This document shows, in pieces, positions 8,664 to 24,717 of a stretch of 25,440 nucleotides of DNA (position 1 is its first letter; each line of letters starts with the position of its first letter). The stretch spans positions 1 to 25,440 of the IMG/VR virus record IMGVR_UViG_3300023179_000468; one strand, written 5' to 3'. The position numbers and the translations under genes are program-made. This DNA is from a virus. Under the pieces are notes generated by a model. That model saw only the letters and a list, made by a program, of their open reading frames with translations. It searched no databases and was not told where the DNA came from.

Positions 8664-10136
8664 TTAATAATACGTCTTATTGTTTCTTATAATAGGTTCG
8701 TCTTTATAGTCTTCAGGATGATCTATAAATCCACCTTGTCTAAAACGCATGACTGCTTGTGTCATAGAATCTACAAGGTCATCATGATCCCCATAAGGAA
8801 ATGCTGCGCATTCCTCAATTACCTCTTGTGCAAATTCCTTTTCAACAGGAGCCCATATTTGACCTGATTCAAATAGTGGTGCCACAGAGTTAACTCTAGA
8901 GTGCTTATCATTCCCTCTAGAAGGTGTATAGTTTATAACAGGGATGCCCATTTTACGCAATTCATAAGTTAATGGTAATCCTGAAGCTTTAGCCTCAACC
9001 AATACAGTTTCTGGTTGCCAATACTGATATTGTTGATATGCTACACGTCGAAGCTCAGGAAATTCAAAACGATCTTTTACAGCATCAAGCAAAATGAGTT
9101 GAGGTCCTGAGTCTTCATTTCTTTGAAAAACTCCCCATGTTGTTATTGCTGAGTAATCCGCTGATTCTTTTTTTAAAAATGCAGTATCATAACTTTGTAT
9201 AACATGTTGTAATGGTGGAATATAATCCTTATCCCATTTCTGCCACCACTCACGTTTTATAATTGCACCTTCTTCTGATGTTGGATTTTGCATCCATTGT
9301 GCATTCCATTTTTGTAAACTGATGGATGCTTTTACTCCTTCTAATTCATCTAACTTCCAAAACTCTGGCCATACTGGTTTACCACTTGGAAGTATTGCAG
9401 GAAATTCTATGAGTTCCCATTTATCAGATTTAATGTTCCCCGATTCTCGCAGCAAGCTTCCAGTCAAATCCTTTGTGTTCCATCTTGTCATAACGAGTAC
9501 AATTGCTCCTCCTGGTTGAAGTCGCTGCCTTGGGCCGGACGTGTACCATTCGTGGGCTCGCTCTAATGCATCTATGTTCATTGCATCTTGTTCAGAATGC
9601 GGATCATCTATAATTAATAAATCTGCACCTCGACCTGTAATAGCGGAACCAACACCGGCTGCATAATATTCACCGCCTTGTTCTGTTTCCCATTTACCAG
9701 CAGCTTGAGAATCTTCACGAAGCCGAGTTGGAAATATTTCTTTGTACTCTGGCATGTCCATTAAAGTTTTAGCTTTTCGACCAAACCTTACAGCGAGTTC
9801 TGTAGTGTGAGTCGATTGAATTATTTTTAAATTTGGTTTACGCCCGATCATCCAAGCGGGAAGCAAGAAGCTGGCGAACTCGGACTTTGTATGTCGCGGC
9901 GGCATATTAATAATTAATCTTTTGATTTTACCATTTGCCAAGTCATTAAACTTTTCTGCAATTCTTTTGTGATGGGAGCCTTCAATAAATTCTGGCCAGA
10001 CACGTTTTACAAAAGACATAAAATCATTTTGTGATTTTTCTATTGCACGTTTTTGTGAAGCTAGTGTCGCGGCTTCAATAAATTCTTTTTGAATATCAGG
10101 TGGTAATAAATTTAATTTCTCTAAAGTCAGTTTCAT
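8664..10136 (-). CDS. terL: Terminase large subunit
   Basis: This is the 490-residue ATPase-nuclease that packages phage DNA through the portal. The N-terminal ATPase shows a Walker A-like segment IINMPPRHTKSEFAS (residues about 75-90), a coupling segment around IQSTHTTEL, and Walker B DLLIIDDPHSEQDA near residue 175. The C-terminal RNase H-like nuclease shows IQSYDTAFLKK (first acidic residue), LVEAKASGLPL, and PYGDHDDLVDSMTQA with the terminal Asp pair. The length is normal for the family. It heads the packaging/virion block, with a 220-nt gap upstream. Residues 232-245 (LTGSLLRESG) are coded by a 7-bp periodic, GC-rich patch at 9437-9464. Confidence 0.93.
   Translation of the reverse strand: MKLTLEKLNLLPPDIQKEFIEAATLASQKRAIEKSQNDFMSFVKRVWPEFIEGSHHKRIAEKFNDLANGKIKRLIINMPPRHTKSEFASFLLPAWMIGRKPNLKIIQSTHTTELAVRFGRKAKTLMDMPEYKEIFPTRLREDSQAAGKWETEQGGEYYAAGVGSAITGRGADLLIIDDPHSEQDAMNIDALERAHEWYTSGPRQRLQPGGAIVLVMTRWNTKDLTGSLLRESGNIKSDKWELIEFPAILPSGKPVWPEFWKLDELEGVKASISLQKWNAQWMQNPTSEEGAIIKREWWQKWDKDYIPPLQHVIQSYDTAFLKKESADYSAITTWGVFQRNEDSGPQLILLDAVKDRFEFPELRRVAYQQYQYWQPETVLVEAKASGLPLTYELRKMGIPVINYTPSRGNDKHSRVNSVAPLFESGQIWAPVEKEFAQEVIEECAAFPYGDHDDLVDSMTQAVMRFRQGGFIDHPEDYKDEPIIRNNKTYY
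9437..9464 (-). repeat. Cryptic 7-bp periodic patch inside terL (4 units)
   Basis: Read on the minus strand, four consecutive heptamers all have C at position 2 and G at position 5, for example ACTGGAA and GCGAGAA. The patch is GC-rich compared with the surrounding coding sequence. It lies over codons for LTGSLLRESG. A second, weaker run on the plus strand (9852-9872, CCAAGCG then GGAAGCA) lies opposite the region just after the Walker A motif. Confidence 0.6.
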
Positions 10137-10236
10137 AAAATTTTCCGCAAAATTTTTTAGGATTAATTTTGGAACCTTGAAAGTATTTACAGCTTATAAA
10201 TGAGTAAATCAAGCGATAAAGGGTAGACTTTAGGGA

Positions 10237-10255
10237 CCCCTTTTTTAAAAAGGGG
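10237..10255. terminator. Hairpin between the leftward cluster and terL, possible terminator
   Basis: CCCCTTTTT pairs with AAAAAGGGG around a central T, giving a 9-bp stem that is symmetrical on both strands. There is no separate U-tract after the stem, so an intrinsic terminator is plausible but not certain. It could equally be an mRNA processing or stabilising hairpin upstream of terL. Confidence 0.35.
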
Positions 10256-10307
10256 ATTGGTATTTACCGAGGCAAAGTTAAATCTAAAGTGGATGGGACC
10301 TCTACGC

Positions 10308-10356
10308 CCCCGCCACTCGATGCTCGCACCGAGCGGCTAGAAGCTAGCGACTAGAC
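10308..10356 (+). repeat. Tandem heptamer array, CTAG/CGAG type (7 units)
   Basis: Seven contiguous 7-bp units each have C at position 2 and G at position 5, for example CCGAGCG, GCTAGAA, GCTAGCG. Because CTAG is palindromic, parts of the array also read in phase on the minus strand. It overlaps a short inverted repeat CTAGACT-C-AGTCTAG (10351-10365) covering the stop codon of the 88-residue gene. Confidence 0.65.
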
Positions 10357-10623
10357 TCAGTCTAGTAGTGTCATGTATTCGTTAGGAAAATGTTTAGAGA
10401 ACCAACTCAATCCCTTTTGCATAAGATCATACTCTTCTGTAACCTCGGCACCTTTAATCATATCATACACAGCAACAGCAAACCAAGGTAGGCTCGCAAC
10501 TGTACCGCTGTACATATTAGGTACATCAATTAGTTTTTCTTTTGGGTCTAGATTTAAATCTAAGTCAAAGGGTATTCTATACTCTTTGCCTTGCCAGTTT
10601 ATTACATGTAATGGTTTAGTCAT
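10357..10623 (-). CDS. Hypothetical protein, 88 aa
   Basis: This is a compact soluble protein of 88 residues starting MTKPLHVINWQGKEYRIPF. It has an acidic DLDLNLDPKEK stretch and a C-terminal half rich in aromatics (SLPWFAVAVYDM, LSWFSKHFPNEYM). I do not recognise the family. The ATG is preceded by the shared leader AACTAACAGAAAGGTATAAC, which also contains the stop codon of the upstream gene. It is therefore the last gene of the 12209-10357 cluster. Confidence 0.65.
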   Translation of the reverse strand: MTKPLHVINWQGKEYRIPFDLDLNLDPKEKLIDVPNMYSGTVASLPWFAVAVYDMIKGAEVTEEYDLMQKGLSWFSKHFPNEYMTLLD

Positions 10624-10637
10624 GTTATACCTTTCTG

Positions 10638-10991
10638 TTAGTTATTAATTACTATATCCTCAACTGCATTGCTGTTCAATAACTTTATAGTTGTATCTAC
10701 ATATGTACCACGCCACCCCTCTTTAGTTTCTTTCTCAACTACTATTGGAGTCTCTTGTGGTTTAGTATTTATTCCAACTACAGTCATTAACTGTGTTAAA
10801 TGTTTAGCTAGCCAATCTTGCATACATCGTTCGTCGCAAAAATATCTTTCCCAGATATAACCCCAAGAGTGAGTTGTTAAATCATATCTTGCGGCACGAG
10901 TTCTAAGAACTTTGTTTCCTTTTGGTCCTCTTATTCTGGACTGAGTTTTATATGTATGACACTCAGGTCCTTGGCAAATATGTCTATTCAT
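10638..10991 (-). CDS. Hypothetical Cys-containing protein, 117 aa
   Basis: Cys/His residues form two groups: HICQGPECHTYKT near the N-terminus and YFCDERCMQDWLAKH near residue 50. The pattern C-x4-C then C-x3-C with nearby His suggests a small zinc-binding fold, with a basic stretch RIRGPKGNKVLRTRAARYD between them. Nucleic-acid binding is a reasonable guess but unproven. A GAGAGAAAGGATAACTAAAA leader precedes the ATG. It starts 2 nt after the stop of the 70-residue gene, so the two are probably co-translated. Confidence 0.65.
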   Translation of the reverse strand: MNRHICQGPECHTYKTQSRIRGPKGNKVLRTRAARYDLTTHSWGYIWERYFCDERCMQDWLAKHLTQLMTVVGINTKPQETPIVVEKETKEGWRGTYVDTTIKLLNSNAVEDIVINN

Positions 10992-10993
10992 TT

Positions 10994-11206
10994 TTAGTTA
11001 TCCTTTCTCTCAACTAAAGTTATATCGCCACTTGCAGTTCTATATCCCTCGCTGTCTAAATCATAATAAGTAAAAAGACTTTCATTCTTTTTAGATATCC
11101 ATTGTTTAGATTGTTCAGTCCATACTCCAGCACGAGTTATAAACTTGCCATACTTTTTAGCAAAGTAAGTTATATTAAATTTAGTACCCTCTTTAATGTT
11201 AAACAT
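10994..11206 (-). CDS. Hypothetical protein, 70 aa
   Basis: The protein is 70 residues, soluble and aromatic-rich (KFNITYFAKKYGKFITRAG, SLFTYYDLDSEGYRTASG). I do not recognise the family. It is the first gene after the perfect-consensus promoter at 11236-11264 and carries the shared leader ACTAACAGAAAGGTATAAT before its ATG. It is therefore probably strongly expressed and directly controlled by the palindromic operator there. Confidence 0.65.
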   Translation of the reverse strand: MFNIKEGTKFNITYFAKKYGKFITRAGVWTEQSKQWISKKNESLFTYYDLDSEGYRTASGDITLVERKDN

Positions 11207-11229
11207 ATTATACCTTTCTGTTAGTTATG

Positions 11230-11264
11230 TAGGGGATTATATAGGATATAATCCCCTATGTCAA
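11230..11264 (-). promoter_or_regulatory. Perfect-consensus sigma70 promoter inside a 13-bp inverted repeat
   Basis: On the minus strand TTGACA (11264-11259) is followed by a 17-nt spacer and TATAAT (11241-11236), the exact consensus. The spacer and -10 box lie in a perfect inverted repeat: TAGGGGATTATAT, three bases, then its reverse complement (11230-11258). It reads toward 11206-10357. The symmetry suggests a dimeric repressor operator, or a hairpin in transcripts coming from the 11268-12209 gene. The plus-strand 13-mer GGATTATATAGGA at 11234-11246 recurs at two other promoters. Confidence 0.8.
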
Positions 11265-11267
11265 TAC

Positions 11268-12209: not shown

Positions 12210-12244
12210 TTTATACCTCTTTCATTGTTAGTTATAATTATTAA

Positions 12245-12283
12245 TTTATACTACTTGACAATAGCTGTCAATAGGATTATATA
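12245..12283. promoter_or_regulatory. Divergent promoter pair sharing a palindromic -35 region
   Basis: TTGACA-ATAGC-TGTCAA (12255-12271) is a perfect 6-bp inverted repeat that supplies a -35 box to both strands. Rightward: TTGACA (12255-12260), 17-nt spacer, TATATA (12278-12283). Leftward: TTGACA (12271-12266), 15-nt spacer, TATAAA (12250-12245), a short spacer that makes this arm weaker. The 13-mer GGATTATATAGGA occupies 12274-12286. The layout looks like a control switch between the leftward cluster and the rightward Gp88 operon. Confidence 0.7.
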
Positions 12284-12294
12284 GGATATAGATT

Positions 12295-12450
12295 ATGAAA
12301 GGTATAGTTATTGTTAATATTAATTTACTCTCGCTGTATCCTCATAATTTAGCGTGGACAGAGAGTAATCTTCCTGGCTTGAAGGGGAATAAAGCCATAG
12401 ACAAGTGCAGTGTACACATTAGGGACGGAAAGATCGCACTACGTTATTAA
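12295..12450 (+). CDS. Small hypothetical protein, 51 aa, first gene of the rightward operon
   Basis: ATG 12295 to TAA 12448-12450 gives 51 residues starting MKGIVIVNINLLSLYPHNLA and ending CSVHIRDGKIALRY. It is too short for common ORF cutoffs but is placed exactly behind the promoter at 12255-12283. The expected start of transcription is about 12290, so the leader would be only a few bases. An AGGA at 12283-12286, eight bases before the ATG, could be a Shine-Dalgarno if transcription starts further upstream. I do not recognise the family. The alternative is a non-coding leader RNA. Confidence 0.5.
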   Translation: MKGIVIVNINLLSLYPHNLAWTESNLPGLKGNKAIDKCSVHIRDGKIALRY

Positions 12451-12465
12451 TACTCGCCCCGAGCT

Positions 12466-12534
12466 ATGCGACAAAATTACGCGCCTGTAAACCTTGTAAT
12501 GTTAACAGGCGCAACTAAAATGAGAAAGTTATGA
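12466..12534 (+). CDS. Possible microprotein, 22 aa
   Basis: A 22-codon frame (MRQNYAPVNLVML...) ends in TGA overlapping the ATG of the next microprotein (ATGA, 12531-12534), an arrangement common in this genome. It has no strong ribosome-binding site and overlaps the hairpin at 12481-12512. It may instead be untranslated leader. Confidence 0.25.
   Translation: MRQNYAPVNLVMLTGATKMRKL
12481..12512 (+). other. GC-rich hairpin GCGCCTGT...ACAGGCGC in the rightward operon
   Basis: An 8-bp perfect stem with a 16-nt loop stands out in the AT-rich context between the 51-residue gene and the Gp88 block. There is no T-run after it, so it is more likely an attenuator, processing site or RNA-stability element than a classical terminator. 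Confidence 0.4.
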
Positions 12535-12608
12535 TTGATATACATTTAACAGACCTGCTTCTAGCAGCTATCTTGTTTACATTGTGGTGGATGGTATGGC
12601 AAAAATAA
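12531..12608 (+). CDS. Single-TM microprotein, 25 aa
   Basis: The frame runs from ATG 12531 to TAA 12606-12608. After an acidic N-terminus (MIDIHLTD) there is one hydrophobic helix, LLLAAILFTLWWMVW, then QK. GAGAAAG lies just upstream of the ATG. It overlaps the next gene by 13 nt. It belongs to a set of five membrane-type microproteins in this window. Function is unknown. Confidence 0.5.
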   Translation: MIDIHLTDLLLAAILFTLWWMVWQK

Positions 12609-12790
12609 AAAAAACATACCTGGACTTTACAGCCTATATCTGGCGGGACCATAAAGAATTAGATCCGGAATATATAAAGCAATGTAAAGCATTCCTGGCC
12701 CAGCTGCCGCGCCCTAACCCGTTTCAAGCTACAAGCAGCAAGCCTCAAGCTGCAAGCGACAAGCAGCAAGCACTTGACAAATCTAAATAG
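12596..12790 (+). CDS. Hypothetical protein, 64 aa, with repeat-encoded C-terminal tail
   Basis: I start this gene at ATG 12596 (MAKIKKTYLDFTAYIWRDHK). An in-frame GTG at 12584 has no support. The N-terminal 45 residues look like a real small domain ending in LPRPNPF. The last 20 or so residues (QAASDKQQAL and similar) are encoded by the tandem heptamer array at 12724-12772. The stop lies in the spacer of the promoter for the next gene. Family unknown. Confidence 0.6.
   Translation: MAKIKKTYLDFTAYIWRDHKELDPEYIKQCKAFLAQLPRPNPFQATSSKPQAASDKQQALDKSK
12724..12772 (+). repeat. Perfect tandem heptamer array, NCAAGCN x 7
   Basis: Seven uninterrupted 7-bp units of form N-CAAGC-N (for example TCAAGCT, ACAAGCA) give exactly 49 bp. 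The array encodes the C-terminal tail of the 64-residue protein and ends two bases before the TTGACA of the next promoter. Two related arrays lie on the far side of the Gp88 gene. Confidence 0.9.
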
Positions 12791-12801
12791 TGGATTATAT
12801 A
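12774..12801 (+). promoter_or_regulatory. Sigma70-like promoter for the Gp88 gene
   Basis: TTGACA (12774-12779), a 16-nt spacer and TATATA (12796-12801) read rightward. The -10 box lies in the third copy of the 13-mer GGATTATATAGGA (12792-12804). The predicted transcription start, about 7 nt past the -10 box, coincides with ATG 12808, so the transcript may be leaderless. The AGGA in the 13-mer is only three bases from the ATG, a poor Shine-Dalgarno spacing. Confidence 0.6.
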
Positions 12802-12807
12802 GGACAT

Positions 12808-13413
12808 ATGAAAGTAACAGAATTAGATCAAATCACCGGCACCCTGTCAAAGCCTTCTAAGATGCCAGGCTGGAGCTACGGTATACCTGCTAAAGAATGC
12901 AAAACAGGTTCTAAGCTTGCAAAAATACCAGGCACTGTCTGTCACGGCTGCTACGCTCTGAAGGGTTGCTATGTATTTCCTAATGTACAAGAAGCTCAGT
13001 ACAAGCGACTAGCAGCAATTGATCACCCTCTTTGGGTCCAGGCAATGGCAGCTCAGATCTTACGCCATAAGTCAAAATGGTTCCGATGGCATGACTCTGG
13101 AGACATACAATCATTAGAACATTTAAAAAAGATATTCGAAGTATGCAAACTAACGCCAGATGTTAATCACTGGCTCCCGACGCGAGAAGCTTCTATTATA
13201 GCATGTATAACCCCTGAAGAGGTTCCAGCTAATCTTATTATACGAATTTCAGCAACTAAAGTAGATGGCAATCCACCTACTTTCTGGCCTTATACCTCCA
13301 GTGTAGTAACTGAAAACAAAACATGCCCTGCAGCGGAGCAGGATAATAAATGCTTAAGCTGTAGGGCGTGTTGGGATCGCAATGTTAAAAACGTTGCATA
13401 TGGTAAACACTAA
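12808..13413 (+). CDS. Gp88-domain Cys-rich phage protein, 201 aa
   Basis: The protein matches the 'Gene product 88' family seen in many phages. Signature segments are PSKMPGWSYGIPAKECKTGS, AKIPGTVCHGCYALKGCYVF, VQEAQYKRLAAIDHPLWVQAM, FRWHDSGDIQSLEHL and the C-terminal Cys cluster CPAAEQDNKCLSCRACWD. The clustered Cys suggest metal or Fe-S binding, but the biochemical role of the family is not known to me. I start it at ATG 12808, because the ATG 18 nt upstream lies inside the promoter. The gene is visibly more GC-rich than most neighbours, sits on the opposite strand, has its own promoter and is bracketed by heptamer arrays. These are signs of a separately acquired cassette. Confidence 0.8.
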   Translation: MKVTELDQITGTLSKPSKMPGWSYGIPAKECKTGSKLAKIPGTVCHGCYALKGCYVFPNVQEAQYKRLAAIDHPLWVQAMAAQILRHKSKWFRWHDSGDIQSLEHLKKIFEVCKLTPDVNHWLPTREASIIACITPEEVPANLIIRISATKVDGNPPTFWPYTSSVVTENKTCPAAEQDNKCLSCRACWDRNVKNVAYGKH

Positions 13414-13414
13414 C

Positions 13415-13552
13415 ATGGCCCGATATCATAACTATCACTCATACCGGGGAGACTCGGGGTCGGGCCGTAACCCACAAGCCGCAAGCAACAAGCACCAAGC
13501 GTCAAAGCTGCAAGCAGCAAGCGTGCCAAGCTTCAAGCGCCAAGCGTCTTGA
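13415..13552 (+). CDS. Small repeat-tailed protein, 45 aa
   Basis: The ATG follows the Gp88 stop by one base and the frame runs to TGA 13550-13552. The first 20 residues (MARYHNYHSYRGDSGSGRNP) are His/Tyr/Gly-rich. The rest is encoded by the heptamer array at 13474-13546 and gives QAASNKHQAS, close in composition to the tail of the 64-residue protein (QAASDKQQAL). It overlaps the 3' end of the convergent nuclease gene by 20 nt. It may be a non-coding 3' region, but its position and matching tail favour translation. Confidence 0.4.
   Translation: MARYHNYHSYRGDSGSGRNPQAASNKHQASKLQAASVPSFKRQAS
13417..13466 (+). terminator. Hairpin after the Gp88 gene
   Basis: GGCCCGA (13417-13423) can pair with TCGGGCC (13460-13466). 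The intervening bases hold a further GC-rich stretch (CCGGGGAGACTCGGGG). No T-tract follows, so termination is uncertain. Confidence 0.3.
13474..13546 (+). repeat. Tandem heptamer array, NCAAGCN type, about 10 units
   Basis: Units such as ACAAGCC, GCAAGCA and CCAAGCG follow each other with two small phase slips (an 8-bp and a 9-bp unit). The array covers the 3' end of the 45-residue frame and the last bases of the convergent nuclease gene. Confidence 0.85.
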
Positions 13553-13901
13553 ATTTTTGATATATTGATTCGAGCCCCAAGCAGCAAGCATCAAGCTTCA
13601 AGCCGCAAGCAGCGAGGGACTGGATGCTAGAGCCTTCATAAAGTTTTAGAAGCGAGTCTCTTTCAGAAGAAACTAGGATAAAAGTATTCTTAGGATGCCT
13701 TACATGGAAGCTAATTTGATGGGGACTTAGCTTAACAGAATTACCTTTTGCAACCTTTAATTCAACAGTAAAAAAAGTATGATTTTTATTATACGCCAAT
13801 AGATCTGGAGTGCCAAAACCGCTTAAATTTTCTAGCCTTGTGAAAGATATTTCAGGCATAAATTTTTTAACTTTATGCCAAAGTTTTCGTTCAGGTTTCA
13901 A
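13533..13901 (-). CDS. VRR-NUC-like PD-(D/E)XK nuclease, 122 aa
   Basis: The start MKPERKLWHKVKKFMPEISF is followed by the catalytic layout SGFGTPDLLAY (Asp) and FFTVELKVAKGN (E-x-K), then VKLSPHQISFHVR and NTFILVS. This is the order of the VRR-NUC / Holliday-junction-resolvase-like nuclease fold. The C-terminal part (SLAACGLKLDACCLGL) is encoded antisense to the heptamer arrays at 13577-13632 and 13533-13546, so the tail is repeat-derived. Likely roles are recombination or DNA processing. It starts 5 nt after the 75-residue gene. Confidence 0.75.
   Translation of the reverse strand: MKPERKLWHKVKKFMPEISFTRLENLSGFGTPDLLAYNKNHTFFTVELKVAKGNSVKLSPHQISFHVRHPKNTFILVSSERDSLLKLYEGSSIQSLAACGLKLDACCLGLESIYQKFKTLGA
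13577..13632 (+). repeat. Tandem heptamer array, CAAGC grading into CGAG/CTGG/CTAG, 8 units
   Basis: The first five units are N-CAAGC-N (CCAAGCA, GCAAGCA). The last three change core but keep the phase and the C2/G5 pattern (GCGAGGG, ACTGGAT, GCTAGAG). This transition links the overt CAAGC arrays to the cryptic CGAG/CTAG patches found elsewhere in the window. Confidence 0.8.
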
Positions 13902-13906
13902 GGTAG

Positions 13907-14134
13907 CTACACCTTTTTCAAAACCTTACCCATTGTCCATCTTTCTTTGTCAATTGTAATGATTAATCTATGAGTTTCACGATTTCCAATTAATTTATTT
14001 TCCATTAATTGTATTCCAGTAATGTCATAAAATTCACCATTAGGTAAACAAACTTGAACACGAGCTTCTTTAGAAACTTCAGATCCTTTAAGAAATTTAT
14101 CTAATGTATGTCTTAATGTTTTTCCTTTAATCAT
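13907..14134 (-). CDS. Hypothetical protein, 75 aa
   Basis: The protein is 75 residues, soluble and beta-rich by appearance (ARVQVCLPNGEFYDITGIQL, THRLIITIDKERWTMGK). I do not recognise it. Its ATG overlaps the TGA of the micro-frame at 14131-14181 (ATGA), and it lies directly upstream of the VRR-NUC-like nuclease, so the two probably share a transcript. Confidence 0.65.
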   Translation of the reverse strand: MIKGKTLRHTLDKFLKGSEVSKEARVQVCLPNGEFYDITGIQLMENKLIGNRETHRLIITIDKERWTMGKVLKKV

Positions 14135-14181
14135 AATTTCTTTTTACCTGGGGCCCAGTATCCGAAGGCATAATCAAACAT
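14131..14181 (-). CDS. Possible microprotein, 16 aa, before the 75-aa gene
   Basis: The frame MFDYAFGYWAPGKKKL ends in a TGA that overlaps the next ATG. The same frame remains protein-like for about 12 codons upstream (for example YQRLLGSAYEK) but has no start codon there. It may therefore be the remnant of a longer gene, or use a non-standard start. CTGGGG (14148-14153) can also pair with CCCCAG (14197-14202), so an RNA role is possible. Confidence 0.3.
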   Translation of the reverse strand: MFDYAFGYWAPGKKKL

Positions 14182-14247
14182 CTTCTCGTAAGCCGACCCC
14201 AGTAAGCGTTGGTATGTCCACTTGATTTATATCTAAAATTACCTTAA

Positions 14248-14808
14248 ATGTCTAGTATGACACAACCAAAAAGATTAACAGAAATGCAAATGAAATTTGC
14301 ATATGAGTTAGTTACAAACGAAGGTAGAAAGACTGGTGCGGAGTGTGCTATTGCTGCAGGTTATTCACCAGAAGCTGCAATTGTATATGCAAGTAAACTA
14401 CAAAATCCAAAAGTATATCCATTGGTTGTACAATATATTGGAAAATTAAGATCGGAGTATCAAAAAAAATATGACGTTACATTTGAAAGACACATATCAG
14501 AACTTGCAAAGCTTAGAGACAATGCAAGAGAAAACAAGGCTTGGTCAGCTGCTGTCAATGCTGAAGTTGCTAGAGGAAAAGCAGCGGGGTTGTACGTTGA
14601 ACAAAAGATTATTAGGACCGGTAAGTTAGAAGATCTTACTGCAGAACAGTTAGAGGCTCGTATGAAAGAAATTATAAACGAGTACTCACCGATCCTAGAG
14701 GGTGTTGTATTAGATGATATTAAAAAAGAAGTTAAATCTAAACAAAAAGAAATTAACTATTCTTCATCGTCATCATCAAAATCATCTGAATCAGAATCAC
14801 AATCGTGA
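14248..14808 (+). CDS. terS: Terminase small subunit-like protein, 186 aa
   Basis: The N-terminal half, LTEMQMKFAYELVTNEGRK then AECAIAAGYSPEAAIVYASK and LQNPKVYPLVVQYI, is the helix-turn-helix DNA-recognition region typical of phage small terminases. It would bind the packaging site and feed DNA to TerL. The middle is helical (VTFERHISELAKLRDNARE). The last 15 residues are almost all Ser (SSSSSSKSSES) and are coded opposite an acidic minus-strand gene. It is a lone plus-strand gene about 4 kb from terL, with no clear promoter. ATG 14248 or the ATG three codons later are both possible starts. Confidence 0.75.
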   Translation: MSSMTQPKRLTEMQMKFAYELVTNEGRKTGAECAIAAGYSPEAAIVYASKLQNPKVYPLVVQYIGKLRSEYQKKYDVTFERHISELAKLRDNARENKAWSAAVNAEVARGKAAGLYVEQKIIRTGKLEDLTAEQLEARMKEIINEYSPILEGVVLDDIKKEVKSKQKEINYSSSSSSKSSESESQS

Positions 14809-14906
14809 TTTTCTAAGTCTTCAGCTTTTTCTCTGATGCTATCAATATCTTCTTGGATTCTATCAAGTATATCTTGAATAGATTCATTCTTTGGTTTTTT
14901 TGCCAT
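14757..14906 (-). CDS. Small acidic protein, 49 aa, antisense to the terS tail
   Basis: The frame runs from ATG 14904-14906 to TAG 14757-14759. It begins MAKKPKNESIQDILDRIQED, continues as a charged helix and ends in an Asp/Ser tract (DSDSDDFDDDD). It overlaps the 3' end of the upstream minus gene by 23 nt and the 3' end of the plus-strand terS-like gene by 52 nt. The repeated ATC/TCA codons read as Ser on one strand and Asp on the other. Acidic DNA-mimic proteins have similar tails, but a function cannot be assigned. Confidence 0.5.
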   Translation of the reverse strand: MAKKPKNESIQDILDRIQEDIDSIREKAEDLENHDCDSDSDDFDDDDEE

Positions 14907-15379: not shown

Positions 15380-16072
15380 CTATTGAGGATTTACGCCATT
15401 TTTTAAATTATAGTACATGTCCACTCGTCTCAACCATTCCGACTTGTAGTCTCTAAAACGTTGTCCGTTGATTATAAATCTTTGAAAAAATAAATCAGGT
15501 GTACATACTAAAACCACTATTTGTTCTATATTTGTGTCATAAATACAATCATGAGCTGAACTGTATGCAGCACCTTGTAGATAATAATCTGTTATCCATT
15601 CATCTCTCTTTGGTTTATTTGATTGTTTAAAGTCAATAATACTGTCTCTTCCTTGATACACACCAACTAAATCTGTTTGTCCTGCATACAAATCTGGATA
15701 ATATAGTACAACCTCATTGCCCCATATTTCTTGTAAATCACCTAATCCTTTATCAATTATAGTTTGTGCCATGCTCCTCGCCACTCCCCCCTCGTCGCTC
15801 AAATCTAGTAGCCCTTGCCCGTTTAAATGGTATTCCAAATACGAGTGCATTGCAGTGCCACGTGTTGCTGCAACATTTTTAACGCGTTCTGCTTCAACTT
15901 CACCAACCTTTGCTTTCCATTTAGCCAAAGACTCTCGTTTCTCGCTGCTCGCTGTTGCACCTAGTATCGTGGTCACAGAAGGGAGCTTCGAGGATCCAAT
16001 TTCATAGTGTCTCTCGTCTTTAATCAAAGATCGCATAGACTTTGGGTACTCGTATAGTTTATTCCATTTCAT
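15380..16072 (-). CDS. RecB/lambda-exonuclease-like PD-(D/E)XK exonuclease, 230 aa
   Basis: The fold order is clear: KLPSVTTILGAT, RGTAMHSYLEYHL (His of motif I), YYPDLYAGQTDLVGVYQGR (Asp), SIIDFKQSNKP (D-x-K), and YYLQGAAYSSAHD (Q-x-x-x-Y). This is the RecB/Cas4-like exonuclease layout used in phage DNA recombination and end processing. Its ATG shares a base with the stop of the 49-residue gene upstream. Two stretches, TASSEKRESLAK and DLSDEGGVARS, are coded by cryptic 7-bp periodic GC-rich patches (15925-15952 and 15775-15809). Confidence 0.82.
   Translation of the reverse strand: MKWNKLYEYPKSMRSLIKDERHYEIGSSKLPSVTTILGATASSEKRESLAKWKAKVGEVEAERVKNVAATRGTAMHSYLEYHLNGQGLLDLSDEGGVARSMAQTIIDKGLGDLQEIWGNEVVLYYPDLYAGQTDLVGVYQGRDSIIDFKQSNKPKRDEWITDYYLQGAAYSSAHDCIYDTNIEQIVVLVCTPDLFFQRFIINGQRFRDYKSEWLRRVDMYYNLKNGVNPQ
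15775..15809 (-). repeat. Cryptic heptamer patch in the exonuclease gene (5 units)
   Basis: Minus-strand heptamers such as ACTAGAT and ACGAGGG keep the A4-G5 core in all five units. They code DLSDEGGVARS with unusually GC-rich codons. Confidence 0.55.
15925..15952 (-). repeat. Cryptic heptamer patch in the exonuclease gene (3 strong units)
   Basis: GCGAGCA and GCGAGAA are followed by ACGAGAG and a weaker unit, TCTTTGG. The patch codes ASSEKRESLA. It aligns well with the first polA patch (21786-21813), which begins with the same GCGAGAA unit. Confidence 0.6.
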
Positions 16073-17941: not shown

Positions 17942-18029
17942 TTTTTCTTTTCTTTCCAAAGCAATCCCATTTTTTGTGATATGCTTTTAATAGTTTAGCT
18001 ATTGCTTTTTTATATTGAGTCATAGTCAT
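17922..18029 (-). CDS. Very basic small protein, 35 aa
   Basis: MTMTQYKKAIAKLLKAYHKK continues into a Lys/Arg-rich C-terminus. The ATG overlaps the TGA of the upstream zinc protein (ATGA). A second in-frame ATG two codons on is an alternative start. It could bind nucleic acid, but no family is recognised. Confidence 0.5.
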   Translation of the reverse strand: MTMTQYKKAIAKLLKAYHKKWDCFGKKRKNGSKKS

Positions 18030-18199
18030 TGTAATTGTCCCGCATCATCAAGATCATTAATAACATCTTCTGTAATATCAACTTCACCTTGATTCTTACA
18101 GTAGTCACAATCCATTGGTTGTTTTTTTCTATCATCATGGTTAAATGAATATACAAATCCATTACCATTACACTTTGGACATATTATTTTTCCACTCAT
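18026..18199 (-). CDS. Small DnaJ-type zinc-finger protein, 57 aa
   Basis: Two Cys pairs, CPKCNGNG and CDYCKNQG, spaced about 20 residues apart, match the C-x-x-C-x-G-x-G motif of the DnaJ central zinc finger. An acidic tail (DITEDVINDLDD) follows. Such single zinc modules are frequent in phages. Start and stop overlap both neighbours by four bases (ATGA), indicating coupled translation. Confidence 0.65.
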   Translation of the reverse strand: MSGKIICPKCNGNGFVYSFNHDDRKKQPMDCDYCKNQGEVDITEDVINDLDDAGQLQ

Positions 18200-18513
18200 G
18201 TTATTTTTACATCTGCAAATTTACGTTTACCATTTACGGTGTAATTCCAGATTATTCCTTTCTTAATTAAATCGTATCTTTTTAGTTTTTCAAATGTTTG
18301 CTTTGGATCAAATCCAGCAAACTCACATAGTTCAATAAAGTCTTGATTATAAACTTTACCAAAGCATTTAGATTCTCGCCACTCGTCTCTAGACATTGCA
18401 ACGGTGCATATGCCAAAAGTGTCTTGAATCGCTTGCATAAATACTGCACGCCAAAGTTTTTGTTCTGGTGTTGCAGGTCTTGCATCAGCTTCTAAACTAC
18501 TTAAGTTTACCAT
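18196..18513 (-). CDS. Hypothetical conserved-type phage protein, 105 aa
   Basis: The motifs ARPATPEQKLWRAVFMQAIQD, SRDEWRESKCFGKVYNQDF and ELCEFAGFDPKQTFEKLKR resemble a common phage protein of unknown function whose C-terminal helix pair may bind DNA. The codons for SRDEWRES carry a three-unit heptamer patch at 18373-18393. It overlaps the ribbon-helix-helix gene by 17 nt, so the two are probably co-expressed from the 18692-18720 promoter. A shadow frame inside (18282-18485) is ignored. Confidence 0.7.
   Translation of the reverse strand: MVNLSSLEADARPATPEQKLWRAVFMQAIQDTFGICTVAMSRDEWRESKCFGKVYNQDFIELCEFAGFDPKQTFEKLKRYDLIKKGIIWNYTVNGKRKFADVKIT
18373..18393 (-). repeat. Cryptic heptamer patch (3 units) in the 105-aa gene
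   Basis: The units are TCTAGAG, ACGAGTG and one GCGAGAA, in perfect 7-bp phase on the minus strand. A weaker fourth, TCTAAAT, follows. They code SRDEWRE. Confidence 0.55.
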
Positions 18514-18664
18514 TTAATGTTCTCGCTTTCTCGTTAACCAATGTTTTTATAACTTGGCTACGACTTAACTTAACATCTGATTTAAGTTTAGTTTGAAGTT
18601 TAGTTACAATTGTATAAGTGTCATTATCAACAGTTATGTTTTTGTATTTACTAAAGTCAGTCAT
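18497..18664 (-). CDS. Ribbon-helix-helix (Arc/CopG-like) small regulator, 55 aa
   Basis: The frame was read by hand from ATG 18662-18664 to TAG 18497-18499. KYKNITVDNDTYTIVTKLQT (strand plus helix) and VKLSRSQVIKTLVNEKA (LSRSQVI turn and second helix) fit the ribbon-helix-helix fold: a short strand, helix, S-R-S turn, helix. Such dimers bind palindromic operators. It has its own promoter (18692-18720) and the shared leader ACTAACAAGAAAGGTAAAA. It is a natural candidate to bind the palindromes at 11230-11258 or 12255-12271, but that is inference. Confidence 0.7.
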   Translation of the reverse strand: MTDFSKYKNITVDNDTYTIVTKLQTKLKSDVKLSRSQVIKTLVNEKARTLNGKLK

Positions 18665-18691
18665 TTTTACCTTTCTTGTTAGTTTTATTTA

Positions 18692-18720
18692 TATATAGGA
18701 TATTAATATAGATAAGTCAA
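18692..18720 (-). promoter_or_regulatory. Sigma70-like promoter for the ribbon-helix-helix gene
   Basis: On the minus strand TTGACT (18720-18715), a 17-nt spacer and TATATA (18697-18692) precede the gene at 18664. ATATCC directly upstream of the -10 box repeats the context seen at the 11236-11264 promoter. The gap 18665-18721 contains no other feature. Confidence 0.65.
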
Positions 18721-18721
18721 G

Positions 18722-18856
18722 TTATTGTTTTCTACCTTGTCCTCTATATTCTTTTCGCGTATTACGTTTATTAGGACGTTTTGAATGTCGTCCAGGTCTT
18801 TTCTTATTGGTTTGCTTTATAAATTTTCCGTTACCTATTGCTACTTTTCGTGCCAT
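18722..18856 (-). CDS. Very basic small protein, 44 aa
   Basis: The frame starts MARKVAIGNGKFIKQTNKKR and ends KEYRGQGRKQ, with Lys/Arg throughout (PGRHSKRPNKRNTR). It resembles small basic proteins found in many phages, perhaps nucleic-acid binding. It overlaps the upstream zinc-ribbon gene by 26 nt and ends just before the promoter at 18720. Confidence 0.55.
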   Translation of the reverse strand: MARKVAIGNGKFIKQTNKKRPGRHSKRPNKRNTRKEYRGQGRKQ

Positions 18857-19061
18857 GTCTTTTTATATAATCTTTATCTGTCTCATTAAGTTTTAAATAC
18901 TTTATATGTCCGTTGATATATTGTCTAGTATCTTCACCACAATTTGTGCATCTATAATAGTCTTGTACAATTGCTACTAGAAATGCTTCTGTCTTACATT
19001 CAGGACAAATTCCAAGAACATTATCAATAAACATAGATGAATTAAATTTTAGTTTTTGCAT
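18831..19061 (-). CDS. Zinc-ribbon protein, 76 aa
   Basis: CPECKTEAFLVAIVQDYYRCTNC contains two C-x-x-C pairs 15 residues apart, a classic zinc ribbon. It is followed by a helical, charged tail. The ATG overlaps the last base of the M15 reading frame. Zinc ribbons of this size often act in transcription or as protein adaptors. The specific role is unknown. Confidence 0.65.
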   Translation of the reverse strand: MQKLKFNSSMFIDNVLGICPECKTEAFLVAIVQDYYRCTNCGEDTRQYINGHIKYLKLNETDKDYIKRHGTKSSNR

Positions 19062-19515
19062 TACATTACTGTGTAAATAATCCTACCATTTAATTTTTGT
19101 GCATTCAAATATTGTTTTCTATTACCTGAATCGTTATAACTGCAATGAACCCATCCAGAATTAGGATCGTTAGGGTTCCAAAATTCTAATATACATTGAT
19201 CGTAATCAAGATTTTTTACTATCCAATCACTTACGTCTTTATTATGTATGCCAAATAGTTCAAAATCGGCCGCCTGTCCCTTGTATGTTGACTCCCGCTG
19301 CTCGATCCTATTGCCTCGCATAAAGCTGCTGATCTGTAGCCAGAAGAAATAGATACTGGAATTTTAAAATGATTTCTTACAGGTTGTAATATATTTTTAC
19401 AAAGTAAAATTAAATTAGTTACATGTTCATCACTTGGTTCATTTGGTATTCCAAGTCGTATTGCTTCTTGTGACTTTGTTAATTCATCTAATGTAAAATT
19501 TTCACTTAGTCTCAT
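19061..19515 (-). pseudogene. Peptidase M15 endolysin split by a -1 frameshift
   Basis: Frame one (19515 leftward) gives LSENFTLDELTKSQEAIRLG, SISSGYRSAALCEAIGSS and SGSQHT, the N-terminal part of an M15_3 D-Ala-D-Ala type peptidase. It then runs out of family sequence. Frame two picks up exactly where the family continues: KGQAADFELFGI, then NLDYDQCILEFW and GWVHCSY. The zinc ligands are thus split: His of SQH, Asp of AADF, His of WVH. One base inserted near 19282 (ACAAGGG to ACAAAGGG) would rejoin them. Real mutation, assembly error or programmed shift are all possible. No canonical slippery heptamer is seen. The shift lies inside a heptamer patch. Confidence 0.8.
19271..19319 (-). repeat. 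Cryptic heptamer patch (7 units) at the M15 frameshift
   Basis: Seven consecutive minus-strand heptamers run from GCGAGGC to ACAGGCG. Five have both C2 and G5, one lacks C2 and one lacks G5. The phase is unbroken across the frameshift site, which lies in the ACAAGGG unit. Part of it is nearly identical to the polA patch at 22556-22576. Confidence 0.65.
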
Positions 19516-19530
19516 AAATTAAAAATAATA

Positions 19531-19704
19531 TTACCATTTTTTTAAGGGACAACTTGCGTATTTTAATTTAGTTTTCCATTTTAAAGGACAACCACATTTT
19601 CTACATTTTATTTTTTCTTTATTATAATGTTCACATGGCATACAAATATTTAATCTATCTTCTTGTGTTTTTTCATCAACTAAAATTATATTTTCTAATA
19701 GCAT
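19531..19704 (-). CDS. Small Cys-rich zinc protein, 57 aa
   Basis: The frame was read by hand from ATG 19702-19704 to TAA 19531-19533. The Cys pattern CMPCEHYNKEKIKCRKCGC, then CPLKKW at the C-terminus, is shared by many small phage proteins of unknown function (C-x-x-C, C-x-x-C-x-C, C-P-x-x-x-W). It sits between the two wall hydrolases, 5 nt after the glucosaminidase stop, without a strong ribosome-binding site. Confidence 0.65.
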   Translation of the reverse strand: MLLENIILVDEKTQEDRLNICMPCEHYNKEKIKCRKCGCPLKWKTKLKYASCPLKKW

Positions 19705-19709
19705 ATTAA

Positions 19710-20309: not shown

Positions 20310-20362
20310 GGCATTTACAATGTTGGGATAAGCAGCATCCAACTGCTAGGTTGTTGATACAA

Positions 20363-21022: not shown

Positions 21023-21024
21023 AA

Positions 21025-22884
21025 TCAATCATAAATATCTCCCCATGTTTCGCCGCTTTCATAATCAACTTTGTTAGGGATTGCCAAAGTTACAGCGTTC
21101 TCCATTATTTCAACAATCTTTTTTGCATGATTGTCATCTATAACAGAAATATCTAATTCATCATGTATTTGAATGTGTGGAATAATTCCTTCATTATATA
21201 AATCTAACATTGCTTTCTTTGTCATGTCGGCTGCTGATCCTTGTATTAATTTATTTAATGCTTTGTAAGTCATTGCTCTTCTAATTCTACCACGTCCGTA
21301 AGTTCTTTCAGCTTCTTCAAATGACATTGCAGTGTGCATTCCAAATGTAGCAGGTTCCCATTTATTAAATCTACAACGACGACCAAGTAATGTTCCAATT
21401 GATCCTGATGTTTGTGCAAATTGAGATGTCTTATTCATTAATTCTTTTACAAATGGAACGTTTTTATGATATTGATTAAATAATACTTCAGCTTCTTCTT
21501 TTGTACTCAATCCAAGTTCAGCTTGTAATTTTGCTTTACCCATTCCATAAAATAATCCAAGGTTAATTGTTTTTGCTTGATCTCTAGATATACCTGCCAT
21601 ATCAGCAACAGTTTTGTGGAAGTCTACTTTGTTGTCTTTAAATTTTTCTACGATATCTGTAACAGAATCATCAAAACAAATTGGCTCAGTTGTTGCTGCA
21701 TAATGTACAACAAGTCTTGGTTCTTGTTGTGAATAGTCAAAACATCCCCATTTATGATTAACTTCTGGCAAAAATAAACTTCTTATCATAGGTCCTAGAT
21801 CCTTGTTTCTCGCTGGGATTTGTTGGAGATTAGGATTAGCATATGAAAATCTACCAGTAACTGTACCACCTTGATCGGATCTTATTGGATTAATATCAGC
21901 ATGAATTCTACCTTTATGAGTAAATCTTAATATTGAATCAATAAATGTTGAATGAGCTTTATTTAATTCTCTTGCTTTTGCAATCTTTTGAACAAGTGGA
22001 TGTTTATGTTCTTGTAAAAAGTTTTTAGTAAATGAAGGTTCATTTGCTTTTTCTGTTCTATCGTAATGTAATTTTAAATGATCAAACATTTTAGCAATAC
22101 TTCTTGCTGCCATGATTTGCACATCTAATCCTGTTTCTTTTTTAACTTCTAATAATAAATTCTGTTCTTTTAATACAAGTTCTTTTTTTAATTTATCAGC
22201 TCTTTCTATATCTATTCTTACTCCATTAAATTTCATATCAATAAGACATGGAAATAATTGAGTTTCTAAATCAAATACATTTTGTAAATTTTGTTTTTGT
22301 ATTTCACGAGATAAAACTTTAAATAATTCTAATGTTAATTGCGCATCTTTTTCTGCATAAGATCCAACATATAATGCAGGAAGTTTATACATTTCAGACT
22401 TAGGATCTATTCCCCAAGACTGAGCTGCTTCTGTTAATGCTTTCTCATCTTTAACATCACCAAGAAATTCATATGAAATACTATTTAATGTATAAGACAA
22501 TCTATTTTCATCAATTAATGATGCCATCACCATTGTATCTACAATATGTCCATTGATTTTGATTCCCGCTGCTCGAAGCCAGCAAACGTCATACATTGCA
22601 TTGTGAAATATTTTTACATTATCTGCAGCACAAATAGATTTAATCCAACTCATGACTTTGTCATGTTCTAAATTACCACCACCTTCATGAGCAATCGGAT
22701 AATAACCTGACCATCCATCTACAGCTACTGCAATACCCACAATGTTTCCATTACCAATAATCGCACCTGAACCTTTTGATTTAAGATCTGGATCTTTAGT
22801 TTCTAAATCTATTGCAATATATTTATATCCTTTTAAATCAGGATAATTGTCTGGACAAATCCATTCTTTCTGAGCTTCAAACAT
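21025..22884 (-). CDS. polA: DNA polymerase A with 3'-5' exonuclease, 619 aa
   Basis: The N-terminal proofreading domain shows all exonuclease motifs: YIAIDLETKDPDL (Exo I), KIFHNAMYDVCWLRAAG (Exo II), VGSYAEKDAQLTLELF (Exo III). The polymerase domain shows FDYSQQEPRLVVHYA (motif A), RDQAKTINLGLFYGMG (motif B) and IPHIQIHDELDIS (motif C). No 5'-3' exonuclease domain is present, as usual in phages. Motif B has Leu at the position equivalent to E. coli Pol I Phe762. Two 7-bp periodic GC-rich patches lie in conserved segments: ARNKDLGPM (21786-21813) and CWLRAAGIK (22556-22583). The ATG directly follows the stop of a 23-residue microprotein. Confidence 0.95.
   Translation of the reverse strand: MFEAQKEWICPDNYPDLKGYKYIAIDLETKDPDLKSKGSGAIIGNGNIVGIAVAVDGWSGYYPIAHEGGGNLEHDKVMSWIKSICAADNVKIFHNAMYDVCWLRAAGIKINGHIVDTMVMASLIDENRLSYTLNSISYEFLGDVKDEKALTEAAQSWGIDPKSEMYKLPALYVGSYAEKDAQLTLELFKVLSREIQKQNLQNVFDLETQLFPCLIDMKFNGVRIDIERADKLKKELVLKEQNLLLEVKKETGLDVQIMAARSIAKMFDHLKLHYDRTEKANEPSFTKNFLQEHKHPLVQKIAKARELNKAHSTFIDSILRFTHKGRIHADINPIRSDQGGTVTGRFSYANPNLQQIPARNKDLGPMIRSLFLPEVNHKWGCFDYSQQEPRLVVHYAATTEPICFDDSVTDIVEKFKDNKVDFHKTVADMAGISRDQAKTINLGLFYGMGKAKLQAELGLSTKEEAEVLFNQYHKNVPFVKELMNKTSQFAQTSGSIGTLLGRRCRFNKWEPATFGMHTAMSFEEAERTYGRGRIRRAMTYKALNKLIQGSAADMTKKAMLDLYNEGIIPHIQIHDELDISVIDDNHAKKIVEIMENAVTLAIPNKVDYESGETWGDIYD
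21786..21813 (-). repeat. Cryptic heptamer patch 1 in polA (4 units)
   Basis: GCGAGAA and ACAAGGA, then TCTAGGA and CCTATGA, in exact 7-bp phase, code ARNKDLGPM. Three units have C2, A4 and G5; the fourth keeps C2 and A4. Confidence 0.6.
22556..22583 (-). repeat. Cryptic heptamer patch 2 in polA (4 units)
   Basis: GCTGGCT and TCGAGCA, then GCGGGAA and TCAAAAT, code CWLRAAGIK. The last three units match the M15 patch (19285-19305) at 19 of 21 positions although the reading frames differ. Confidence 0.65.
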
Positions 22885-22956
22885 TTATATTAATACCATA
22901 ATTAAAAAACAATATACACATAACACTGTGAATAAACCTAAATCAAATATTGCCAT
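22885..22956 (-). CDS. Single-TM microprotein, 23 aa
   Basis: The frame starts at ATG 22954-22956 (MAIFDLG) with a hydrophobic LFTVLCVYCFLIMVLI. Its TAA is directly followed by the polA ATG, so its translation may drive polA. It follows the DUF3310 gene after 4 nt. Confidence 0.5.
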   Translation of the reverse strand: MAIFDLGLFTVLCVYCFLIMVLI

Positions 22957-22960
22957 TCTT

Positions 22961-23182
22961 TTACCTTTCATCTTTATAGTCTCTTTCTATAATCATTTGT
23001 ATGTAGTGAATTGCTTTTAGCAAATCCTCTTTCTTTCCTTTATCCTGGTGTCTGCAAATATATTTTATTGCATTACCTTCTGCGAATAATATCTTATTTT
23101 CATTTATAAATCTAGAAGGCTGTATTTTATATTTTTTATAATGTTTTCCTCCGACTTGTTTCCAAAATACTGAGTTTGTCAT
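22961..23182 (-). CDS. DUF3310 (SaV-like) protein, 73 aa
   Basis: The signature is plain: VGGKHYKKYKIQPSRFI, NKILFAEGNAIKYICRHQDK and KKEDLLKAIHYIQMII. DUF3310 proteins are short phage proteins, sometimes labelled nucleotide kinase-like without proof, and usually lie among replication genes as here. The start overlaps the helicase stop (ATGA), indicating coupled translation. Confidence 0.85.
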   Translation of the reverse strand: MTNSVFWKQVGGKHYKKYKIQPSRFINENKILFAEGNAIKYICRHQDKGKKEDLLKAIHYIQMIIERDYKDER

Positions 23183-24717
23183 AGTATAGGTTCTCCTGGT
23201 ATATAGTTATAAAAATCATCCATATCTGATTGCATGATATAAAGATTTTCTTTTGCACGTGTTACACCCACAAAAAACAATCTGTGTTCTGGATCAGGTT
23301 TTTTTAATGCGGCTTCATATATAATCTTTTCCATTCCTGTAAATAAGACTACATTTTCGCATTCTTCACCTTTGACACCATGTATTGTGGATACTTTAAT
23401 TCTTGCTGGTTTAAATAAATCATCACCATTTTCTAATAATGCTTTCATATATAATTTTGAATCTTGTCTTATTTGTAATTGTTCCCAGCTTCCCGTCACT
23501 CGCAACCCGTGATTCATCATCAGATCATCAAGATCTACATAGTCTACGACGTCCAAAGATTTACCTCCTGAAAAATTTTCTTTAATTAAACCTGCCTTAA
23601 CTGTTAAATATTTATAAATTTTTTTAGCTTCTTCTGCTCCGACAGTTGCACCCTGATTTAATCTTACCCAAACTCTATATGCTTCCAATAATTTATTTGG
23701 CAGTAAGTCATTGATTTTACTATCAAATCTAAGGTTTAAAGATATTAAATATTCTTTGATTGGATCTAACATTTTATTAGTTCTAGCTATAATCATCCAT
23801 TCATCTTTACTAAAATCTAAATTTTCTATTGATTCGTTATGATAAACTTTTCCTTCTGCATCTCTTGGTAACCATGCTTTAATCATTCTATTTTCTATAT
23901 TGTCTAATATGCTTAAGGCCACTTTATGTACAACTCTTGGAACCCTTCTTGATTCTATTCTAGGATCCATCTCACCTTTTAAATTTATAAATATATTTTC
24001 ATCAGCGCCTTGGAACGTATAGATAGTTTGATCGTCATCCCCTGCAATGTATGATCGCTCACATTTTGATTCAATGTAATTGAACATATCCCATTGCAGA
24101 GGATTCAGATCCTGCGCTTCATCAAGAAAGACAGCGTCGAGAGAGGGACACTTATCTTTCTCAATAAACTGTTTAATCATATCAGAGAATTCAATCATAT
24201 TTGTTTGTTCTTTGTATGATTTTAAATCTGCTTCAATTTGTTCTGTTAAATATATTTCAACAGAATATTGTTTATCTAATTCATGAGCTGCATCAAGTAT
24301 TGAAAGTTTTTTAGCTCTTGCATACTCAATAATTTTCATATGATCATTTTTATATTGAGGAAATCCAAATTCATTAGTTTCATAATCAAAACTTAAATCT
24401 TTACATATTTGTGAAAAATTTTTAAATGCATTCCATTTATCACCTATTAATAATTGTAAATTAGTATCTATATTTAATTGTCTTGTTCCTAGTGTGTGCA
24501 TAGTGGATACGTATGGAAAATCTTTTTTAATATCTAATCTTGGAAATACTAATTGAATTCTTTTTTTAGATTCTACATCTGCGGCATTACTAAAAGTAAT
24601 GTATGCAATTTTTTTAGTAGAAGTTTTATATTCTTCAACTTCTTTTACTAAATATTTATTTATTAAATGATATGTTTTACCGGTTCCTGGAGGACCTGGT
24701 ATTATTATTCTTTTCAT
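23179..24717 (-). CDS. SF1A DNA helicase, UvrD/Rep-like, 512 aa
   Basis: All core motifs are present in order: IIIPGPPGTGKTYHL (Walker A, motif I), KKIAYITFSNAA (Ia), AVFLDEAQDLNPLQW (motif II), YIAGDDDQTIYTFQGAD (motif III), WMIIARTNKMLDPI (IV), VSTIHGVKGEECENVVLF (V) and HRLFFVGVTRAKENLYIM (VI). At 512 residues it is shorter than cellular UvrD, lacking large 1B/2B insertions. It would unwind DNA 3'-5' in replication or recombination. The residues around GLRVTGSWEQ are coded by a heptamer patch at 23483-23510. It overlaps the upstream gene's stop (ATGA). Confidence 0.92.
   Translation of the reverse strand: MKRIIIPGPPGTGKTYHLINKYLVKEVEEYKTSTKKIAYITFSNAADVESKKRIQLVFPRLDIKKDFPYVSTMHTLGTRQLNIDTNLQLLIGDKWNAFKNFSQICKDLSFDYETNEFGFPQYKNDHMKIIEYARAKKLSILDAAHELDKQYSVEIYLTEQIEADLKSYKEQTNMIEFSDMIKQFIEKDKCPSLDAVFLDEAQDLNPLQWDMFNYIESKCERSYIAGDDDQTIYTFQGADENIFINLKGEMDPRIESRRVPRVVHKVALSILDNIENRMIKAWLPRDAEGKVYHNESIENLDFSKDEWMIIARTNKMLDPIKEYLISLNLRFDSKINDLLPNKLLEAYRVWVRLNQGATVGAEEAKKIYKYLTVKAGLIKENFSGGKSLDVVDYVDLDDLMMNHGLRVTGSWEQLQIRQDSKLYMKALLENGDDLFKPARIKVSTIHGVKGEECENVVLFTGMEKIIYEAALKKPDPEHRLFFVGVTRAKENLYIMQSDMDDFYNYIPGEPIL
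23483..23510 (-). repeat. Cryptic heptamer patch in the helicase gene (4 units)
   Basis: ACGGGTT and GCGAGTG, then ACGGGAA and GCTGGGA, all with C2 and G5 in 7-bp phase, code GLRVTGSWE. The patch is strikingly GC-rich against AT-rich flanks. Confidence 0.6.

Follow-up and report, generated by a model that had tools for sequence, protein, structure and literature searches.

Unspaced 7-bp C-N-N-G tracks in genes and intergenic arrays of SAR11-type phages, and a small ribbon-helix-helix-like protein as their candidate reader

In the 25,440-nucleotide virus sequence analysed here (IMG/VR record IMGVR_UViG_3300023179_000468, positions 1 to 25,440; hereafter the window), tracks of contiguous, unspaced 7-base-pair (bp) units of the form NCNNGNN, chiefly GCTTGNN, GCGAGNN and GCTAGNN, recur in unrelated genes and in intergenic DNA. 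The arrays comprise 4-9 such units, and their neighbouring copies differ in the two spacer bases while C at position 2 (C2) and G at position 5 (G5) are fixed. The terL protein of the window is 74% identical to that of Pelagibacter phage HTVC027P and 59% identical to that of HTVC023P, so the window, judged by this comparison, is a relative of HTVC023P-type SAR11 phages. The tracks may be tandem, unspaced binding sites with a 7-bp unit, read by a phage protein whose copies line up next to one another along the DNA, for which an unannotated ribbon-helix-helix (RHH)-like protein encoded in the window is the candidate; by analogy with known systems and from sequence comparison, we regard this reading as evenly balanced.

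The 7-bp pattern is far in excess of what coding constraints produce. In the window, 200 shuffles preserving each protein and its codons served as the control. Outside the CAAGC arrays, 11 CNNG runs of at least three units at 7-bp spacing were counted, compared with 0.36 ± 0.56 in the shuffles (maximum 2), and three runs of at least four units, compared with 0.025; other periods gave 0-3 runs, except period 14, a multiple of 7, with 4. In a set of 160 loci from related phages, which amount to 1.44 Mb and were fetched by terL and polA similarity and not by pattern, period 7 yielded 612 runs of at least three units and 319 of at least four, compared with 12-39 and 0-14, respectively, at periods 5, 8, 10, 11 and 13. 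An initial sequence-only reading of the window, in which the pattern had been noticed, named shuffling and related genomes as its decisive checks, and the pattern withstood both. In a scan of 96 two-base skeletons over the same 160 loci, G4C ranked first and C3G second, the two being one identical skeleton (CNNG = G-N-N-N-C); since CNNG tops the scan and its excess is specific to period 7, the motif was not chosen post hoc. In coding sequence only, among loci fetched by an RHH query, there were 54 and 72 runs of four (G4C and C3G), as against 0-1 at control periods. Site maps of the window, a 45.6-kb relative, HTVC027P and HTVC023P each contain about 10-16 candidate sites, in unrelated genes and intergenic DNA, at a score threshold for which shuffles yield 0.8-4.4 sites per genome.

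Pattern and period are restricted to one phage lineage. The AT-rich phage HTVC019P, whose host belongs to the same genus, has zero period-7 runs, and a period-7 excess was not found in CRP-901 or in the GC-rich MinM2. The more distant relative DSL-LC04 exhibits a moderate CNNG excess, with 7 runs of at least four units compared with 0-3 at most control periods. In this freshwater phage (locus L250), CCNNGG-type heptads were also seen at 12308-14830, around and just beyond terL. The GC-richness of the patches and the first detection of the motif by eye might suggest chance or an artefact of codon usage; with next to nothing in the protein- and codon-preserving shuffles, at other periods and for all other skeletons, this explanation was rejected and its probability is practically nil.

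At the synonymous sites of the tracks, selection acts on DNA. Third codon bases falling at heptad position 2 are C in 66% of cases (13% expected) and those at position 5 are G in 74% (19% expected), the expected values being those of identical amino acids in the rest of the gene; third bases at the remaining positions are 11-39% G/C, a mild GC enrichment or none. In homologous patches of relatives, the skeleton survives both synonymous and amino-acid changes. For example, the terL codons ACT GGA AGC TTG CTG CGA GAA TCG GGG and ACA GGT GCC TTG CAG CGA GCG ACG GGA agree at every C2 and G5 letter, and the site and skeleton of this terL track are kept in relatives at 80-97% identity. The helicase patch persists in some relatives even at a protein identity of just 54-59%, and its place is taken by AT-rich codons in others of similar distance. 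Because third bases are fixed at C2 and G5 and the skeleton is kept through amino-acid changes, the constraint is on DNA and not on protein, as the sequence-only reading had proposed.

The nature of the factor behind this constraint is suggested by a change of pitch. Heptads are lacking in the L318/L320 clade and in phage 023Pt_psg01; L318 and L320 carry octads, GCTTGNNN, at homologous places beside the GP88 gene, and 023Pt_psg01 has an excess at period 8. The terL tree places the octad state in two or more distinct, supported clades, each with a second subfamily of the RHH-like protein. Genomes with heptad arrays, covering both RHH subfamilies, contain 3.1, 4.1 and 3.55 in-gene heptad tracks per 10 kb, while genomes with octad arrays contain 0.28 per 10 kb, which equals background; among non-array tracks of the latter, no in-gene octads above background were found. 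The dependence of in-gene tracks on array pitch, alike in both RHH subfamilies, argues for one fixed-pitch trans-acting factor, and a reader of this kind, serving arrays and in-gene tracks alike, is well supported by the comparison of genomes. Intergenic DNA of the L312-L320 phage clade is, in addition, rich in short inverted repeats of the CGCTTCGCGG type.

The candidate reader is a 55-residue open reading frame (ORF) with high-scoring, conserved counterparts in relatives. The RHH-like gene was found in the window, in HTVC027P (gp21) and in 023Pt_psg01, and HTVC023P gp13 was recovered by a combined profile (E 8e-6). Its predicted layout matches that of an RHH protein and consists of a short strand motif, KNITVD in the window or KNVSLS, followed by two predicted helices. 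The flavour of the tracks correlates with this strand, the predicted DNA-reading part: TVD/AID types occur with CGAG/CTAG, and VSLT types with CACG, CAGG or CATG and with C1/G6. Pitch is associated with subfamily as well. The second subfamily has a shorter inter-helix turn and weak matches to RHH_1/RHH_5, and heptad and octad loci are distributed 30:7 in the first subfamily and 8:23 in the second (Fisher p 6.5e-6, pattern-fetched loci left out). From these correlations, the chance that this small protein reads the tracks appears to be about even.

Several observations weigh against an RHH reader. Pfam RHH_1 is matched by 3 of 21 members, weakly (best E 4.8e-4), and the window's own protein has no RHH match in Pfam. 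Confidence in the monomer model is medium (predicted local distance difference test, pLDDT, 75.7); the model places helices at 14-27 and 35-49 and yielded no significant PDB match in a structure search; a lone monomer model cannot show the intermolecular ribbon of an RHH fold. The correlations of RHH type with pitch and flavour ignore phylogeny and have exceptions: one first-subfamily clade has octad or mixed arrays, some second-subfamily proteins occur with heptads, and KNISVK/QNISVK-type proteins occur with few or no heptads. In DSL-LC04, an RHH gene was not found despite the moderate CNNG excess. Covariation of positions 1 and 6 about the dyad is weak (r 0.43 across 14 RHH types), and the GCTTG core in 7-bp arrays also occurs in Pseudomonas and other bacteria. 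Two stricter formulations were rejected, namely a rule assigning 7 bp to the first subfamily and 8 bp to the second, which the exceptions break, and a strictly dyad-symmetric unit, which is weakly supported across RHH types and not at all within units. Units with complementary bases at positions 3 and 4 are in fact under-represented, which would fit an asymmetric core that serves in either orientation.

A possible mode of action is offered by the RHH protein omega/ParB of the Streptococcus pyogenes plasmid pSM19035, which binds 7-10 contiguous unspaced 7-bp repeats in direct or inverted orientation and needs at least four of them for full ATPase activation, its parS having the consensus WATCACW and six sites over promoters (PMC9499535). 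Unspaced 7-bp repeats, four or more in a row, are present in the phage window too, some of the sites lie 5' of genes, and the RHH-like candidate may be the counterpart of omega/ParB, a small dimeric RHH protein whose gene lies on the replicon that carries its sites. The phage units differ in fixing C2 and G5 with lineage-specific fill in place of WATCACW, and in lying also within conserved genes. No match to a ParA-type ATPase (PF13614) was found in the window, the 45.6-kb relative, HTVC027P, HTVC023P or 023Pt_psg01. By analogy, a trans-acting phage protein would bind the tracks at a 7-bp pitch through the fixed letters C2 and G5, with one RHH dimer per heptad and cooperative assembly. High-affinity binding would occur at the clean GCTTGNN arrays and at the terL-upstream track, which would serve for nucleation or as operators of late genes and of the terS-GP88-terL region. 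Short tracks within genes would bind more weakly and spread protein coverage along the genome; nucleoid-like organisation or compaction, replication, and control of expression or packaging are candidate outputs of such coverage. The principle of omega/ParB without a ParA partner would be the simplest reading, and protein-binding tracks, one of the roles raised by the sequence-only reading, are the best supported here. A broader and more tentative possibility is a second DNA-level code, in which tracks set into essential genes by synonymous selection, together with the arrays, form a genome-wide RHH binding scaffold, its pitch switching between 7 and 8 with the reader protein and its in-gene layer being lost at 8 bp.

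Other tandem systems resemble the tracks in part. The RHH repressor MetJ uses 8-bp tandem sites, the met boxes, which are palindromic and occur in small numbers in promoters. An 8-bp pitch is also seen in the octad arrays of the L318 and 023Pt_psg01 clades, but these are GCTTGNNN arrays that lack in-gene counterparts. Short tandemly repeated repetitive (STRR) sequences of filamentous cyanobacteria are heptanucleotide repeats in near-identical tandem copies. They have in common with the tracks a 7-bp tandem unit in bacterial DNA, whereas the phage tracks fix two of seven positions, vary in their spacers between neighbours and lie in conserved coding sequence. The heptads of Pseudomonas and other bacteria share the five-base core (CAAGC/GCTTG) and the 7-bp period; at several of these loci, however, inverted arrays are paired into one long hairpin, while the phage arrays are direct and unpaired. 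Bacterial loci with CAAGCNN arrays followed by GCTTGNN arrays (L030, L035, L040, L058, L066, L082 and others, from Pseudomonas and relatives) could fold into long hairpins in which every heptad contains mismatches.

Several alternative explanations must be considered. A fixed-pitch factor other than the RHH-like protein, such as the terminase small subunit, another small phage protein or a host protein, is unlikely yet a serious contender. The exceptions to the RHH correlation and the tracks of DSL-LC04 would be explained by it, the arrays cluster between terS and terL, and terS genes too differ among these phages; it is disfavoured by the correlation of track flavour and pitch with RHH type, a host protein being moreover hard to reconcile with the zero runs of HTVC019P. 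To our knowledge, no terminase has a 7-bp pitch. An improbable alternative is a selfish or mutational origin, in which slippage or template switching lengthens 7-bp tandem arrays, recombination scatters the repeats, and the copies then decay within genes. It could draw on the readily changing copy number of tandem arrays and on their position around GP88, a gene for which exchange is suggested by its variable identity to the window, discordant with its neighbours. However, adjacent array copies differ in their spacers while C2 and G5 stay fixed, the opposite of what fresh duplication predicts; in-gene units retain the skeleton alone, at homologous sites, despite synonymous and amino-acid changes; and no in-gene tracks above background exist where the array pitch is 8. 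On the latter two grounds, the sequence-only reading's notion of spreading repeats tamed by coding constraint is not favoured. The recombination or packaging marks it had mentioned found no direct support and are not favoured either.

An RNA-level role, with the units folding into mRNA hairpins or mimicking them as processing or termination signals or as sites of RNA-binding proteins, is likewise improbable, and the evidence on it diverges between genes and intergenic DNA. The seven-unit track that immediately follows the preceding gene's stop codon, roughly 170-220 bp upstream of terL, is kept in some 50 relatives and there constitutes a strongly covarying hairpin of 13 bp with a 3-nucleotide loop: 89% of cells are paired, both-side changes number 48 compared with 19.5 ± 3.4 in shuffles, and the C2 and G5 positions correspond to four near-invariant C-G/G-C pairs. 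Intergenic tracks other than the CTTG arrays likewise have a mean folding z of -2.0, and hairpins made of CAAGC/GCTTG heptads exist in Pseudomonas. In-gene tracks, by contrast, do not fold (mean z -0.13 over 198 distinct tracks), so RNA structure was rejected for them; they occur in genes of both strands with an identical G1/C6 bias. Direct GCTTGNN arrays are not self-complementary, an Rfam search of the window gave no match, and a covarying fold was found at the terL-upstream copy only and not at all copies. A consensus sigma-70 promoter was not found at 10130-10650, the region of this track, and many other tracks lie inside genes. Binding of the tracks by a fixed-pitch protein remains the better reading, with the RHH-like protein as its candidate.

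The tracks and arrays of the window are listed in Table 1. All patches named by the sequence-only reading are present, one in the exonuclease gene and that in the M15 peptidase gene being degenerate; it missed the strongest examples, the three CAAGCNN arrays. The clean arrays flank the GP88 gene in the stretch from terS to terL. In the M15 patch, the final two units owe their register solely to a single-base frameshift in the window copy. This frameshift splits the M15 gene (19061-19515, minus strand) exactly at the heptad track, whereas the gene is in one frame in 71 of the 71 relatives found with both halves; it may be a true mutation or an assembly error.

Table 1. Heptad tracks, arrays and the candidate reader gene in the window; exact runs are in-phase CNNG runs of at least three units, and CAAGCNN corresponds to GCTTGNN on the main coding strand
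Feature	Position	Strand	Exact run: start (units)	Remarks
In-gene track, terL codons 225-234	9437..9464	-	9439 (4)	ACTGGAA GCTTGCT GCGAGAA TCGGGGA
Seven-unit intergenic track upstream of terL	10308..10356	-	10309 (7)	just 3' of stop codon of ORF 10357-10623
CAAGCNN array 5' of GP88 gene	12724..12771	+
CAAGCNN array 3' of GP88 gene	13474..13546	+		with phase breaks
CAAGCNN array at 3' end of resolvase-like ORF 13533-13901	13577..13613	+
Degenerate in-gene track, exonuclease	15775..15809	-		C in 3/5 units, G in 5/5
In-gene track, exonuclease	15925..15952	-	15934 (3)	GCGAGCA GCGAGAA ACGAGAG TCT
In-gene track, hypothetical gene 18196-18513	18373..18393	-	18375 (3)
Unannotated 55-residue RHH-like ORF	18497..18664	-		proposed track reader; relatives match Pfam RHH_1 weakly
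Degenerate in-gene track, peptidase M15	19271..19319	-		C in 6/7 units, G in 6/7
In-gene track, polA	21786..21813	-	21795 (3)	GCGAGAA ACAAGGA TCTAGGA CCTATGA
In-gene track, polA	22556..22583	-	22565 (3)	GCTGGCT TCGAGCA GCGGGAA
In-gene track, UvrD-like helicase	23483..23510	-	23485 (4)	ACGGGTT GCGAGTG ACGGGAA GCTGGGA

The genes of the window lie for the most part on the minus strand. Named families include terS, GP88, a resolvase-like ORF, an FkbM-type methyltransferase, an HNH endonuclease, an M15 peptidase, a glucosaminidase, a UvrD-like helicase and an SU10-type portal. The GP88 gene (12793-13413, plus strand) varies in identity among relatives from 52 to 96%, discordantly with neighbouring genes, and is, for instance, 94-95% alike in phages whose remaining genes are 48-88% alike. 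Flanked by heptad or octad arrays, GP88 is possibly an exchange hot spot. Promoter-like boxes (TTGACT/TTGACA with TATATA), recognized by eye only, are located at 18665-18725 (minus strand), upstream of the RHH-like ORF, and at 12250-12295 (plus strand), in the intergenic DNA before GP88.

A description of the pattern was not found in the literature on heptamer repeats in pelagiphages, phage genomes, Pseudomonas and STRR sequences, and the DNA-level track signal of SAR11-type phages appears to have been overlooked so far. For the 55-residue protein, unannotated but conserved throughout the phage group, the tracks point directly to a possible function, and the switch from 7 to 8 bp represents a natural experiment on the co-evolution of a DNA-reading protein and its tandem sites. 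Analyses of codon usage and synonymous rates in such phages take in a non-coding constraint. The phage group is widespread and infects one of Earth's most abundant bacteria, and in its conserved genes a signal at the level of DNA appears to limit the choice of codons.

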